Virus record (IMG/VR): IMGVR_UViG_3300049847_000269
Location: 1 to 27,570 of that record
DNA from: a virus
Strand: one strand, 5' to 3'
Length of the DNA: 27,570 nt
The first letter of the stretch is position 1; every line of letters starts with the position of its first letter. The translations under genes and the position numbers were made by a program. The notes under the pieces are model-generated. The model worked only from the letters and a program-made list of their open reading frames with translations. It did no database searches and had not been told where the DNA came from. Below are positions 1,132-16,216 of the stretch, one piece after another.

Positions 1132-1206
1132 TGGTACACGCAGAGGGATTCGAACCCCCGACCCTCTCCTTGTAAAAGATACGCTCTACCACTGGGCTAT
1201 GCGTGT
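1132..1206 (-). tRNA. tRNA-Val (UAC)
   Basis: Acceptor ACACGCA pairs perfectly with TGCGTGT. The D-arm is GCCCAGTGGTAGAGC. Anticodon loop TTTACAA gives TAC, and T-arm GGGGG-TTCGAAT-CCCTC follows. The anticodon stem TATCT/GGAGA has one A-G mismatch at its second pair. The discriminator A and CCA are encoded. Confidence 0.93.
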
Positions 1207-2549: not shown

Positions 2550-2625
2550 TGGTGGACCGCATCGGAATTGAACCGACCACAGATTGCTTGCAAAGCATTC
2601 TCGCCCCCTTGGTACATGGCAGCCC
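2550..2625 (-). tRNA. tRNA-Ala (UGC)
   Basis: Acceptor GGGCTGC pairs with GCGGTCC, including G3-U70, the alanine identity pair. The anticodon loop TTTGCAA sits on stem AATGC/GCAAT (one mismatch) and gives TGC. T-arm is GTCGG-TTCAATT-CCGAT. The discriminator A and CCA are encoded. The D-arm is weak. It is the 3' neighbour of a large structured non-coding segment and would be on the same transcript. Confidence 0.9.
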
Positions 2626-3240
2626 ATAAGTTGGTGAGTCGTCCGAGCAAGGCCCTTAGGACTGTATATGCACCCATAGGCGACTCATAAATTGGGGTCG
2701 TCTCTCCGACCTGTCAAGCCTAGATAAGCGGCGGCTTTCCCATACCCTACGGCCTAGGGGATTGAACTCCCCTATTACCCATGAGCATTATCATGGAACC
2801 GTATCTTCGTTACTTTAGAATAGGGCACCGCGTCAGAGATATGCGTTCTTCTCTCGGTGTTCCGCATACCTGCCTCCACCGCCGACAAGTTCCCGCGTTG
2901 CTGGGAGTTGTTCCGAAGAAGGTGGTGCCCTAAAATCGCCCGCGTTCCCCCACTTCTATGCGCTGTGGAGTCAAGCTGTCTCTGCGGGTTCGGCCGTGTC
3001 AATTGAATGACGTTGCTTGAGCCTAGATGTACGCCTCTCCCACGCCAGCGCATAGTTGGTTAGTGGTACCCACGTACTTTGTCTGATACGTATTGCTCGG
3101 TGGGATCACAACCCACAATTCTCGGTTATTCTTTTTGCACATGTAACGTCCCGAAGGGCAGTCCAGTGCATTAAATGTTATTCCCCGATGCGTCCGCTGT
3201 CCGGTACCCTGTCACTATCCACGGTGCGAGCAATTTAATC
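2626..3240 (-). ncRNA. Large multi-domain structured non-coding RNA candidate (GOLLD/ROOL-like size and context)
   Basis: This stretch of 615 bases holds no plausible gene but shows nested pairing. Domain 1: ATTGCTCG (3234-3227) with CGAGCAAT (3099-3092), 8 bp, carrying a T-arm-like GTGGG/CCCAC hairpin and a UUCG-capped hairpin inside TGCAC/GTGCA. Domain 2: CTATGCGCTG (3055-3046) with CAGCGCATAG (2965-2956), 10 bp, enclosing TCAAGC/GCTTGA. Domain 3: TAGGGCACC (2932-2924) with GGTGCCCTA (2829-2821), 9 bp, enclosing TATGCG/CGCATA and an ACAA..CCC/GGG..TTGT hairpin. Domain 4: the element at 2748-2803. Hairpins AAGCC/GGCTT and GGTCG/CGACC follow. tRNA-Ala lies immediately 3'. Large ornate phage RNAs such as GOLLD and ROOL have this size and tRNA proximity; I cannot confirm homology. 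No group I/II intron, RNase P or tmRNA signature was seen. Confidence 0.6.
2748..2803 (-). ncRNA. 56-nt three-stem tRNA-like element inside the large RNA
   Basis: TACGGTT (2803-2797) pairs with GGCCGTA (2754-2748) over seven bases. Two of the pairs are G-U on the minus strand and would be A-C on the plus strand, so the minus-strand RNA is favoured. Inside are a CATGA/TCATG hairpin with a six-base loop and a T-arm-like TAGGGG/CCCCTA hairpin with loop AGTTCAAT stacked directly on the acceptor strand. No D-arm and no seven-base anticodon loop exist, and no CCA follows. Confidence 0.45.
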
Positions 3241-4023
3241 TTAGAAGATCAGTCGTACTCCGGCACGCCCTTCCGCTTCGGTCTTAAGCCCATCAAGGAA
3301 GATTGCGCGAGCCTCGCCAAATACCTGCGGCCCAAAGCCATTTGTCTTGCCAGCATTGGACTGTACTCCGATGAGTGCAGATGGGCGAACGAGTGTTCCC
3401 CAAGTGTTATAGTCCAGTGTGCCCACACCCACAAAACGAGGGCGACCACAACGAAGTCTATAAACATCGTACTCAAAGCGATTAGCGAATCGAGTGTTAT
3501 CAACAACTACGCCTCCACCGAGATAAGCAATTGGGCAGATGAATAAGAGCCCATCACCAGTGAAGCGATAGAAATGCTCTGCTCCACCTAAGGAGATGCG
3601 TGCCCCTACACTCTTATAACGTGCACCACCCTCAAATGCACCAAAGTTACGAATGAGTGAACGATCAGTTACAACTGCATTCACACCTACCCATGTCTTC
3701 GTATTCTTAGCAGGAGCCGATGTGAGGTACACAGTCGTTGTCTTCATCACCGATACTGTGTCATGCACCACATAAGGTACATTTACTGCACGATCCACAG
3801 TGACGTATCGCACAACCGAGTCACACGGGGCACTTGCCTTAGCCACAATCTTAGGTGTGGTGTGCTTGACTCGGGGGGCTGCTGTCACTGTATGCTTGTG
3901 CGGTCGCGTGGTGGTCACATGAGTGCGTTTGGTGGTCGGTGTGTGCTTCTCGCAGGGACACGGATCGGCGCAACTTGCTGTAGCGATGAGGAGTGCTGCG
4001 AGAATTGTGGGGATGATTTTCAT
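3241..4023 (-). CDS. Putative lipoprotein with outer-membrane beta-barrel-like C-terminus
   Basis: A 260-residue protein. Residues 1-18 form a lipoprotein signal (MKII, hydrophobic core, ATAS before C19). A Cys-rich start (ADPCPCEK) is followed by a low-complexity Thr/His/Lys/Pro linker to about residue 60. From about residue 110 on, alternating strands rich in Gly and aromatics end in the sequence GRAGVRLIF. A C-terminal Phe on a beta-strand is typical of Gram-negative outer-membrane barrels. The start follows AAGGAGAACAA. Phage-encoded envelope proteins of this sort can alter the surface of a lysogen or act in lysis; which applies here is unknown. It lies just upstream of the large RNA candidate. 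Confidence 0.75.
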   Translation of the reverse strand: MKIIPTILAALLIATASCADPCPCEKHTPTTKRTHVTTTRPHKHTVTAAPRVKHTTPKIVAKASAPCDSVVRYVTVDRAVNVPYVVHDTVSVMKTTTVYLTSAPAKNTKTWVGVNAVVTDRSLIRNFGAFEGGARYKSVGARISLGGAEHFYRFTGDGLLFICPIAYLGGGVVVDNTRFANRFEYDVYRLRCGRPRFVGVGTLDYNTWGTLVRPSALIGVQSNAGKTNGFGPQVFGEARAIFLDGLKTEAEGRAGVRLIF

Positions 4024-7812: not shown

Positions 7813-7968
7813 TTATTCAGAACCGCCCCAGATTTCCCAAAGGGCGTGCTCATCACGGGGGTCCATAGAGGGATCAAATAGGTCTGCATCTTCCAGAAAA
7901 ATTGCATCATCAGGAATTTCGTCTTCGTCGTCGTCCCATTCTCCATTAGGTGTAATTCGTGGGTCCAT
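7813..7968 (-). CDS. Small highly acidic protein
   Basis: A 51-residue protein, MDPRITPNGEWDDDEDEIPD at the start, with about 18 Asp/Glu and very few basic residues. Its ATG overlaps the stop of the zinc-knuckle gene by one base (TAATG), and GAGGAGAT precedes it. Strong acidity is seen in DNA-mimic inhibitors and in partners of basic proteins, so it could act on the adjacent zinc-knuckle protein or on a DNA-binding host factor. That is inference only. Confidence 0.6.
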   Translation of the reverse strand: MDPRITPNGEWDDDEDEIPDDAIFLEDADLFDPSMDPRDEHALWEIWGGSE

Positions 7969-8345
7969 TATCTCCTCGCAGCCTTGTAGGCTTTATCTGC
8001 TTCTGGACAATTGAATGCACGATGCCCGGGGTTGCGACAGATAGAACAGGCACGCTTACCCTTTGCTAACTTAGGAGTAACTTCCATTCGGGCAGTTACA
8101 GGTGCTACAACAGCCCCGAGTGAGGGTTCTACAGGTGCATCATACTTTACAACCCGTGCCTTTGGCAACTTGGATTCATCACCAGTTTCATCTGCTGCCT
8201 TTACCTTGTATGAATCAGATGCAGCGATTAGATCTGCACTGATCTTTGCAAGCTTCATAATTTCAGCAGAGAACTCTTGCTTCATGCGATGGATGTTATT
8301 TGAGCATTCTAGTAATTCGTCTTTGAGTGTATTGAAGTCTCCCAT
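7968..8345 (-). CDS. CCHC zinc-knuckle protein with coiled-coil N-terminus
   Basis: A 125-residue protein. Residues 1-45 are helical and heptad-like (LKDELLECSNNIHRMKQEF). A basic, Pro/Val-rich linker follows. Near the C-terminus C100-x2-C103-x4-H108-x4-C113 is an exact CCHC zinc knuckle (CSICRNPGHRAFNC), followed by a basic tail ending ARR. Zinc knuckles bind single-stranded nucleic acid and are best known from retroviral nucleocapsids and eukaryotic RNA-binding proteins; they are unusual in phages. An RNA- or ssDNA-binding role is likely. It lies in a tight run with the acidic protein. The dispersed 11-mer (8115-8125) runs antisense through it. Confidence 0.8.
   Translation of the reverse strand: MGDFNTLKDELLECSNNIHRMKQEFSAEIMKLAKISADLIAASDSYKVKAADETGDESKLPKARVVKYDAPVEPSLGAVVAPVTARMEVTPKLAKGKRACSICRNPGHRAFNCPEADKAYKAARR
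8115..8125 (+). repeat. Dispersed 11-mer CCCGAGTGAGG, copy 3
   Basis: An exact copy on the plus strand inside the minus-strand zinc-knuckle gene, preceded by CAGC as in copies 4 and 5. It cannot serve as a ribosome site here. Confidence 0.7.
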
Positions 8346-13693: not shown

Positions 13694-13768
13694 TGGTGCG
13701 CCCCGAGAGACTCGAACTCTCATCTAATAGGTTAAAAGCCTATTGTTCTACCATTGAACTAAGGGCGC
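13694..13768 (-). tRNA. tRNA-Lys (UUU)
   Basis: Acceptor GCGCCCT pairs with GGGGCGC. The D-arm is GTTCAATGGTAGAAC. Anticodon stem ATAGG/CCTAT has loop CTTTTAA, anticodon TTT. T-arm is AGAG-TTCGAGT-CTCT. The discriminator A and CCA are encoded. A structured non-coding block lies immediately 5' of it, the same arrangement as at tRNA-Ala. Confidence 0.95.
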
Positions 13769-14120
13769 AAGGAACCTGTGTGGCCTAGGGTCCGGTGCGA
13801 TTCCACGTTGTGGTGCAATCCGGCAGACGTTCCACACAGGTAGAATATTTCGGCATGGTATCTATCGTATCCGATAGCTTTTTCGCACAATGCACACTCA
13901 GACTGTGTTGTCTTGCAAATTTGTTGTGTGCAAGTCACTCTCTAGTGCGCTAGGCGCAAGGCGATTGTGATTTATACTTGCACACTCAGATTGCCTAAGC
14001 CTTTACGCTTATCTCACTCCTCAACGCGGAGTGTAGCTAGGGGCAATCTACGTCAAGATGGATAGTGTATGAATCGTGTGCCGAGGATTTATTGGTCACC
14101 CCGATGAGCTTTGACGAGCC
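13769..14120. ncRNA. Second structured non-coding segment beside a tRNA
   Basis: No gene fits these 352 bases. Visible pairs are ACCTGTGTGG (13774-13783) with CCACACAGGT (13832-13841), enclosing CCAC/GTGG; GTGTGCAAGT (13926-13935) with ACTTGCACAC (13976-13985), enclosing TGCGC/GCGCA; and AGATTGCC (13988-13995) with GGCAATCT (14042-14049), enclosing TAAGC/GCTTA and ACTCC/GGAGT. TGCACACTCAGA occurs twice (13891-13902, 13979-13990), so GTGTGCA between them can pair with either copy. Stems are free of wobbles, so the strand is not settled. Neighbouring genes are minus, but a U-tract hairpin at 13862 points plus. Confidence 0.5.
13862..13883 (+). terminator. Plus-strand intrinsic terminator candidate
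   Basis: CTATCG-TATC-CGATAG (6 bp, four-base loop) followed by C and TTTTT. It would end a plus-strand RNA containing the 13774-13841 hairpin or antisense to tRNA-Lys. The stem is short and only moderately GC-rich. Confidence 0.45.
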
Positions 14121-14168
14121 GCATAACTTGTTTCCAGTCCGCGTCAACGGGTGGACTTTTCGTTATGC
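14121..14168. other. Stem-loop at the 3' end of the 14163 gene
   Basis: GCATAAC (14121-14127) pairs with GTTATGC (14162-14168), with GTCC/GGAC inside. The arm overlaps the stop codon of the upstream minus-strand gene. No U-tract, so a processing or stability element is as likely as a terminator. Confidence 0.4.
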
Positions 14169-14390
14169 TATGTAATCGTATCGCACACGATCATATACTA
14201 GGGGATTGCGTTCCACAGTGGCCGAGTAATTAGCTAGAGTCTCGGAAATATCGCACTGGCAGATTAGGCATTGCCGCATCGGCTCTGGAACGGGTTTCAC
14301 CCGTTGATACGCTGGGGTAATCTCATTGTGCATTGCATTCAATGGGATAGTTGATTGCGTTCCCCTTGGATTCCCAGCGTACTTCGGCAT
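14163..14390 (-). CDS. Possible small Cys-containing protein
   Basis: A 75-residue frame, MPKYAGNPRGTQSTIPLNAM at the start, with CLICQC near residues 41-46 and an aromatic, basic end (YDRVRYDYIA). A shorter start at 14333 (MHNEITPAYQRV) would reduce overlap with the 14323-14448 frame to 11 bases. Neither start has a convincing ribosome site. Coding is plausible from composition only. Confidence 0.45.
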   Translation of the reverse strand: MPKYAGNPRGTQSTIPLNAMHNEITPAYQRVKPVPEPMRQCLICQCDISETLANYSATVERNPLVYDRVRYDYIA

Positions 14391-14448
14391 GGAATCTTGC
14401 CTTGCCTAAACTTTGCGCGTTATGATATGCGCGCCCCATTTGTTGCAT
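14323..14448 (-). CDS. Possible 41-residue protein
   Basis: The frame MQQMGRAYHNAQSLGKARFH continues to INYPIECNAQ. It starts five bases after the stop of the 14453-14812 gene, consistent with coupling, and it reads like protein sequence. It overlaps the 14163-14390 frame; if that gene starts at 14333, the overlap is only 11 bases and both can be real. Confidence 0.4.
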   Translation of the reverse strand: MQQMGRAYHNAQSLGKARFHAEVRWESKGNAINYPIECNAQ

Positions 14449-14452
14449 TGGA

Positions 14453-14812: not shown

Positions 14813-14863
14813 TGTGTAACCTTTCGTGTTATGTTTGGGTTTGGTTTGTTTCGTGGTATTGAA

Positions 14864-14961
14864 AGAGTGTGAACCCCTAGCAATTCGGGGTCCCGCTTTT
14901 CTCTAGTATTGTGCATCCCGGTTACGTTTCATTCCAGTAACTTGAACGGGGTCCACACTCT
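14864..14961 (-). promoter_or_regulatory. 14-bp long-range stem in the leader of the leftward operon
   Basis: Bases 14864-14877 pair with 14948-14961 without a gap on minus-strand RNA (AGAGTGTGGACCCC with GGGGTTCACACTCT). One pair is G-U on the minus strand but A-C on the plus strand, so minus transcription is favoured. It closes a 70-base loop containing GTTAC/GTAAC and CCCC/GGGG hairpins, 50 bases before the first gene. Confidence 0.55.
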
Positions 14962-15363
14962 CAAAGTTTTTGGATTGCGCTTGGTCATTCTCTCAAACGT
15001 AAGAGCCTGATTAAATCGAGTGACTAGGTTCACTCACGAGCCGGGCACTAGGTTCCGGTAGTTTCTCGCATTGCCGCCCTAAGTCAATTTGACTTGCCAA
15101 GTCAGGGATTGCTTACTATGGGTTGTAGTTTTTCATGACTTTCCGGCGGTGAAGCTTGCACGATGGATTGTGCGATGCTACCGGCCTAAGCCTCGTTCGC
15201 ATTCATTGTGCAGCGCGAACCATTTGCGACACTTCTAAGCTACTGCATCCTGCGTGCTACGTCAAGCTTTTTGTCGCTGGTCACGTTCTACGCTTTTCGA
15301 TTGCTTACTAACGTCAGAGTATTTGCCGCCCGTACAGGCTAGGCCATTTGTCCCTAGTTAGGC

Positions 15364-15474
15364 TCACAATCGGCGACACTTGCACAACCCGTAGTCTAGT
15401 GGCCGATACTTTTTGTTACTCGCCGAACCGCCGTTTCCCGCTTGGATCGCGTTAGCGTCCTTTGCGTTCTTCAT
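15364..15474 (-). CDS. Possible 36-residue leader peptide
   Basis: Frame MKNAKDANAIQAGNGGSASN continuing to GLCKCRRL. An in-frame ATG at 15507 would add 11 residues. CAAGCGGGAA lies upstream but is a weak ribosome site. It is the longest of the leader micro-frames; composition is protein-like (basic, CKC end). Low certainty. Confidence 0.3.
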   Translation of the reverse strand: MKNAKDANAIQAGNGGSASNKKYRPLDYGLCKCRRL

Positions 15475-15662
15475 GCGTTCCCGCTTGCGACACCCTGATA
15501 AGATCATACTTTGTGGCTTGTGTCTAGTCTTTTCTTTCGGCCGATCCTATCGGGCCGATGTCCACTGTGTACGGTTATAACGTATTGCACGCAGCGTACC
15601 AGAGTGCCAGTTATGCAAATAAACGAGTTAGCAGCCTTGCACAAGTGTGTAGTGAGACATAT

Positions 15663-15691
15663 TTGGTCATGGGATTGTCAAGCAATACTAT
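15663..15691 (+). promoter_or_regulatory. Rightward sigma-70-like promoter candidate
   Basis: TTGGTC, 17-base spacer, TACTAT on the plus strand. It lies about 520 bases ahead of the small terminase gene, in the gene-free divergent region. Confidence 0.35.
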
Positions 15692-15837
15692 AACCTATTG
15701 GGATGCAATGGCTTGCGAGAGTGAGACATAATGTCCACTACTGGGTCAAGGTGTCACACAGTAGATCTACGTACTTAACAGTGTTAAATGACCTTAACAT
15801 TTGTTATGGTATAAATCTTGCATATTCACCGATTTTG

Positions 15838-15893
15838 GAGTGTGTCAAATTTGACACACTCGGGAGTGTTCAATTCTGTTACACTTACAGTGT
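15838..15893. promoter_or_regulatory. Divergent operator cluster with perfect 24-bp palindrome
   Basis: GAGTGTGTCAAA at 15838-15849 is followed directly by its exact reverse complement to 15861. Overlapping it is ACACTC-GG-GAGTGT (15856-15869), and ACACT-TAC-AGTGT follows (15881-15893). Together they give repeated ACACT/AGTGT half-sites. The palindrome supplies a perfect -35 TTGACA on each strand: rightward at 15851-15856 with a weak -10 (TTCTGT) at 17 bases, leftward with TATGCA at 18 bases. The site separates the leftward and rightward gene blocks, as expected for a repressor-controlled switch. No repressor gene is in the window. Confidence 0.65.
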
Positions 15894-16065
15894 GGGCGCA
15901 CAGTATAAAGGACGCGCACACGCGTCGCAAGACTAGTGCCAACATGCATCAGTCACACGAGAGACACAAATACGCGACACTTGTGCCGTAAACCCTTGTC
16001 ACGCATAGGCTTTGCAAAGCATTGTATATGCTCCACGCGATAGAATCTAAAGGATAGCAAGGATC

Positions 16066-16140
16066 ATGCCAACGTCGCCCGAGCGTGGCGAGCACGCGAT
16101 GACGCGGGCGGGGGGACGACCCCAACGTGCGGGGTGGCGC
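16066..16140. other. GC-rich segment upstream of small terminase, candidate packaging site
   Basis: Within otherwise moderate-GC DNA, this stretch is dominated by G and C (for example GCGGGCGGGGGGACGACCCC). It contains alternative hairpins TCGCC/GGCGA and GCGTG/CACGC. It lies 75-150 bases before the small terminase gene, the usual position of cos or pac sites. The rest of 15894-16216 contains a GCTTTGCAAAGC palindrome and no gene I can support. Confidence 0.35.
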
Positions 16141-16216
16141 TCTGTGCCTTCTTTGATCTCCGAATGTACAAAAAATTAGACAGACAGACGTTTTGATACG
16201 GAAAGGTGCTAACTCC

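Follow-up and report, generated by a model that had tools for sequence, protein, structure and literature searches.

A non-coding interval directly upstream of a phage tRNA-Ala gene is a candidate structured RNA

Large RNAs of elaborate fold occur beside the tRNA genes of phages, and a stretch of 615 bases lying against a tRNA-Ala gene raises the question of whether it encodes such an RNA or is simply spacer. To our knowledge, GOLLD and ROOL are the giant phage RNAs found near tRNAs, and their functions are unknown. The window analysed here is a whole IMG/VR virus record of 27,570 bases that encodes an SU10-type portal, a terminase and an integrase; the best likeness of the terminase and portal in the phage collection is only about 21–24% identity. 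It carries nine tRNA genes on the minus strand with small genes between them, and seven of these, besides tRNA-Ala itself, lie inside 5.2 kb in the neighbourhood of the tRNA-Ala gene. For the tRNA-Cys at 1132-1206 (minus strand), the anticodon was called as ACA, the usual one being GCA. The small protein encoded at 7968-8345 (minus strand) has a zinc-knuckle-like C-terminal motif, CSICRNPGHRAFNC, which is unusual among phage proteins. The locus in question is composed of the following features:

3241-4023, minus strand: upstream gene for a 260-aa protein with a lipoprotein-like start and without a family match
2626-3240, minus strand: RNA1, a candidate structured non-coding RNA with stems, lacking a coding signal in six frames and an Rfam match
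2550-2625, minus strand: tRNA-Ala (TGC) with encoded CCA, directly downstream of RNA1

The tRNA-Ala gene is real. ARAGORN misses it at default settings and calls it with the -ps90 setting, and it is 79.5% identical to a sequence in LR756511 and 74.4% identical to one in Vibrio phage EniLVp02 that is annotated there as tRNA-Ala. The preliminary description was correct in placing the interval directly upstream of this tRNA. The gene has an odd D-arm, CATGTNCCAAGGGGGCGAG, which is also present in the 595-kb phage LR756511; default ARAGORN misses both copies. LR756511 was considered as a source of an RNA1 relative and rejected: the tRNA-Ala is common to both, but tRNA-Pro lies directly upstream there and no RNA is present.

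RNA1 fills the space between the stop codon of the 3241-4023 gene and the 5' end of tRNA-Ala, with a G+C content of 53%. Its codon scores were negative in all six frames (-0.09 to -0.24, with 6–10 stops per frame), while nearly all genes of the same phage scored +0.13 to +0.27. The two open frames within it, of 92 aa at 2775-3053 (minus strand) and 60 aa at 3056-3238 (plus strand), could be taken as remnants of a decayed gene or as a small unrecognised protein gene; however, they scored -0.17 and -0.25, and neither a PHROG match nor an IMG/VR relative was found, so that we disfavour this explanation as very improbable. The interval is non-coding, on the minus strand and adjacent to a tRNA, and the earlier statement that it holds no plausible gene stands. 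No sigma-70-like promoter was found just upstream of RNA1 on the minus strand.

The interval had been assigned to GOLLD, to ROOL or to a new class, with Infernal cmscan against Rfam proposed as the check. Both families are located near phage tRNAs, ROOL close to the tRNA islands of phages and prophages (PMC12286853), and RNA1 shares this setting. Further hallmarks are assembly into a homo-oligomeric RNA cage for ROOL and, for GOLLD, a conserved 3' region and an expression that increases in the course of lysis. The ROOL model (RF03087) covers about 574 positions, close to the 615 bases of RNA1, while many GOLLD members exceed 800 nt. A diverged member that the Rfam models overlook would agree with this size and tRNA adjacency, and with the report that the sequences of these families are not highly conserved (PMC12286853). 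In contrast, permissive cmscan at E<=10 gave no family match for RNA1, and neither did the ROOL model or the GOLLD model (RF02032) run singly at E<=10. The ROOL model recovered the known copy on plasmid pMP118 with 130 bits; the GOLLD model was used without a positive control in a GOLLD-carrying genome. Local alignment of RNA1 to the pMP118 ROOL was no better than alignment to shuffles. Membership in either family was therefore not borne out, and we regard an overlooked divergent member as highly unlikely.

The four stems named in the preliminary description are all in the sequence. Those of 8 bp (3227-3234/3092-3099), 10 bp (3046-3055/2956-2965) and 9 bp (2924-2932/2821-2829) are perfect Watson-Crick helices, and the 7-bp stem (2797-2803/2748-2754) contains two G-U pairs that, as had been noted, pair on the minus strand only. 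Although described earlier as nested, they lie side by side, and together with a further 7-bp stem (2681-2687/2635-2641) they delimit five consecutive domains, the first of which is domain I (3092-3234). The main elements are as follows:

3226-3236, minus strand: 5' strand of an 11-bp helix with two G-U pairs, P 0.91, closing domains I and II
2933-2943, minus strand: 3' strand of the same helix, pairing with 3226-3236
2956-3055, minus strand: domain II, closed by the 10-bp stem, stem P 0.97; domain z -2.5, the domain being a post hoc choice
2821-2932, minus strand: domain III, closed by the 9-bp stem, stem P 0.98 in the 615-nt fold
2748-2803, minus strand: domain IV, a three-way junction with two perfect hairpins (2796-2791/2784-2779 and 2774-2768/2761-2755), domain z -3.5
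2635-2687, minus strand: domain V, closed by the further 7-bp stem, ending 9 nt before tRNA-Ala

The stems differed in their weight in the predicted ensemble. The outer 8-bp stem, though present in the sequence, reached only P 0.01 because 3226-3236 prefers 2933-2943. The P of the 9-bp stem of domain III dropped to 0.16 once flanking sequence was added. In domain IV the helices had P 0.69–0.97 and the enclosing 7-bp stem P 0.65. Domains II, III and IV folded singly gave z -2.4 to -3.5, values for domains that were picked for their stems.

Compared with shuffles, long perfect stems are mildly enriched in RNA1, and the energy of the whole fold is ordinary. At least two perfect stems of at least 9 bp were matched by 6 of 300 dinucleotide shuffles; the best non-crossing total of stems of at least 7 bp was reached in 2–6 of 200 shuffles, and that of stems of at least 6 bp in 10 of 200. 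The minimum free energy gave z -1.1 to -1.4, and 25 of 150 shuffles were equally good. When stems were counted in 133 tiles across the window, about 10 outscored RNA1, some of them in gene regions. What had been called a candidate giant structured RNA is upheld as a non-coding, tRNA-adjacent, minus-strand interval with mildly enriched stems, but not by its folding energy; modest evidence suggests a selected structure within 2626-3240.

These values bear directly on the simplest alternative, namely that RNA1 is ordinary spacer, either the leader of the tRNA or the 3' untranslated region of the upstream gene, with stems that 615 bases at 53% G+C would form by chance and no selected large fold. 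The unremarkable folding energy is what spacer would give, and the stem excess is at the few-percent level only and is surpassed elsewhere in the window. On the other hand, 615 non-coding bases are long for a tightly packed phage, the excess of long stems is present, and a second such stretch lies beside another tRNA (see below). We judge spacer a little less likely than a structured tRNA-linked RNA, but nearly as likely.

The weight of a weak z depends on what genuine RNAs show. The genuine ROOL RNA of pMP118, in the same energy test, gave a z of only -1.84 for the RNA strand and 0 for its complement, so that the weak z of RNA1 is compatible with a real RNA. Conversely, a 601-nt unannotated gap directly 5' of tRNA-Lys in phage DSS3_MAL1 (L110:2366-2966) gave z -5.8 and was rejected as a candidate, since it contains an open frame whose counterpart in relatives is annotated as a hypothetical protein. 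A strong z alone is therefore no proof of a non-coding RNA, and the coding signal was checked apart from the fold z for both RNA1 and the second stretch.

A published precedent in placement is the long non-coding RNA (lncRNA) of Staphylococcus phage K at 37679-38832 (minus strand), which was detected by RNA-seq (PMC9241854). In the record inspected here it ends one base before tRNA-Asp, and the phage K record gave no match to the ROOL and GOLLD models. Like it, RNA1 is long, non-coding, on the same strand as the tRNA and ends at the tRNA 5' end; "tRNA-linked phage lncRNA (phage K type)" is used here as a description, not as a curated family. Unlike RNA1, the phage K RNA has its expression shown by RNA-seq and a folding energy well under that of its shuffles (z -4.6 to -5.8, and about -4.6 for its last 615 nt). 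It has no sequence similarity to RNA1 or to the second stretch. Table 1 and the text of PMC9241854 interchange lnc001 and lnc002 of phage K, in both name and place.

The second stretch lies in the same phage, in the same position relative to a tRNA gene:

13769-14452, minus strand: RNA2, a second and stronger candidate of 684 nt, ending at the 5' end of tRNA-Lys
13694-13768, minus strand: tRNA-Lys (TTT), directly downstream of RNA2

RNA2 gave z -6.36 over its full 684 bases, a value that none of 60 shuffles reached, and its last 394 bases (13769-14162), a core without a long frame, gave z -4.7, likewise reached by none of 150 shuffles. Neither a coding signal nor a family match was found for a 75-aa frame at 14163-14390; RNA2 is probably non-coding over its whole length, although a real small gene is possible there. 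No Rfam match above noise was found for RNA2. It looks the better structured-RNA candidate of the two, and alignment of RNA1 with RNA2 revealed no shared sequence.

We favour, at a probability of about 0.42, the reading that RNA1 is an untranslated, tRNA-linked minus-strand leader that is released as a stable, large, folded phage lncRNA. RNA1 would probably be co-transcribed with tRNA-Ala, and RNase P cleavage at the tRNA 5' end would generate its 3' end. The released RNA, about 600 nt long, is predicted to form about five successive domains, each closed by a stem, and may act as a stable tRNA-linked lncRNA. This reading draws on the lack of coding in six frames, the excess of stems of at least 7 bp, a folding energy within the range of genuine ROOL (z about -1.4 versus -1.84), the strongly folded, probably non-coding RNA2, which abuts the 5' end of another tRNA, and the precedent in phage K; the resemblance of RNA1 to GOLLD, ROOL and the phage K RNA is one of placement and size. 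It is weakened by a whole-fold energy inside the shuffles, by the disfavoured 8-bp stem and the flank-sensitive 9-bp stem, by the higher-scoring tiles, by the failure to find a homologue or, just upstream, a sigma-70-like minus-strand promoter, and by the absence of common sequence between RNA1 and RNA2.

A broader reading, which we consider unlikely, is that RNA1 and RNA2 (615 and 684 nt) are two large structured RNAs of a single phage, unrelated to each other, both abutting the 5' end of a tRNA so that RNase P makes their 3' ends, and that they are part of a broad, sequence-orphan, tRNA-linked set outside GOLLD and ROOL. If this arrangement recurs in unrelated phages, with a different large RNA immediately before the tRNA in each, this would point to a shared production route, RNase P processing, and to a shared need. 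It would also provide a search rule for such RNAs that is free of sequence similarity.

Relatives were sought widely. Searches of phages and plasmids with blastn returned none, and scans of IMG/VR with the phosphoesterase, the terminase, the 260-aa neighbour and the integrase returned no RNA relative, nor did IMG/VR probes made from open frames spanning RNA1 and RNA2 and used at the nucleotide level. A GP88 alignment yielded 80 loci with hardly any further likeness to the phage and no RNA relative, and a scan of genome contigs with the integrase gave only 26–29% matches, in methanotrophs, and likewise no RNA relative. Phages, plasmids and IMG/VR yielded no homologue in which covariation could be read, so that a new class cannot be claimed.

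Another long spacer, of 1.38 kb, separates the leftward and rightward gene blocks at 14813-16192 and has no coding signal. Pairwise alignments among RNA1, RNA2 and this spacer did not go beyond shuffles, except for RNA2 against the spacer minus strand (4 of 100). A guanidine-II riboswitch match at 16083-16124 (plus strand) is below threshold (14.3 bits against a cut-off of 32) and is probably due to chance. The first half of the spacer folds on the plus strand with z to -3.5, and a perfect 24-nt palindrome, GAGTGTGTCAAATTTGACACACTC, is located at 15838-15861; the spacer is possibly a control region or a replication origin.
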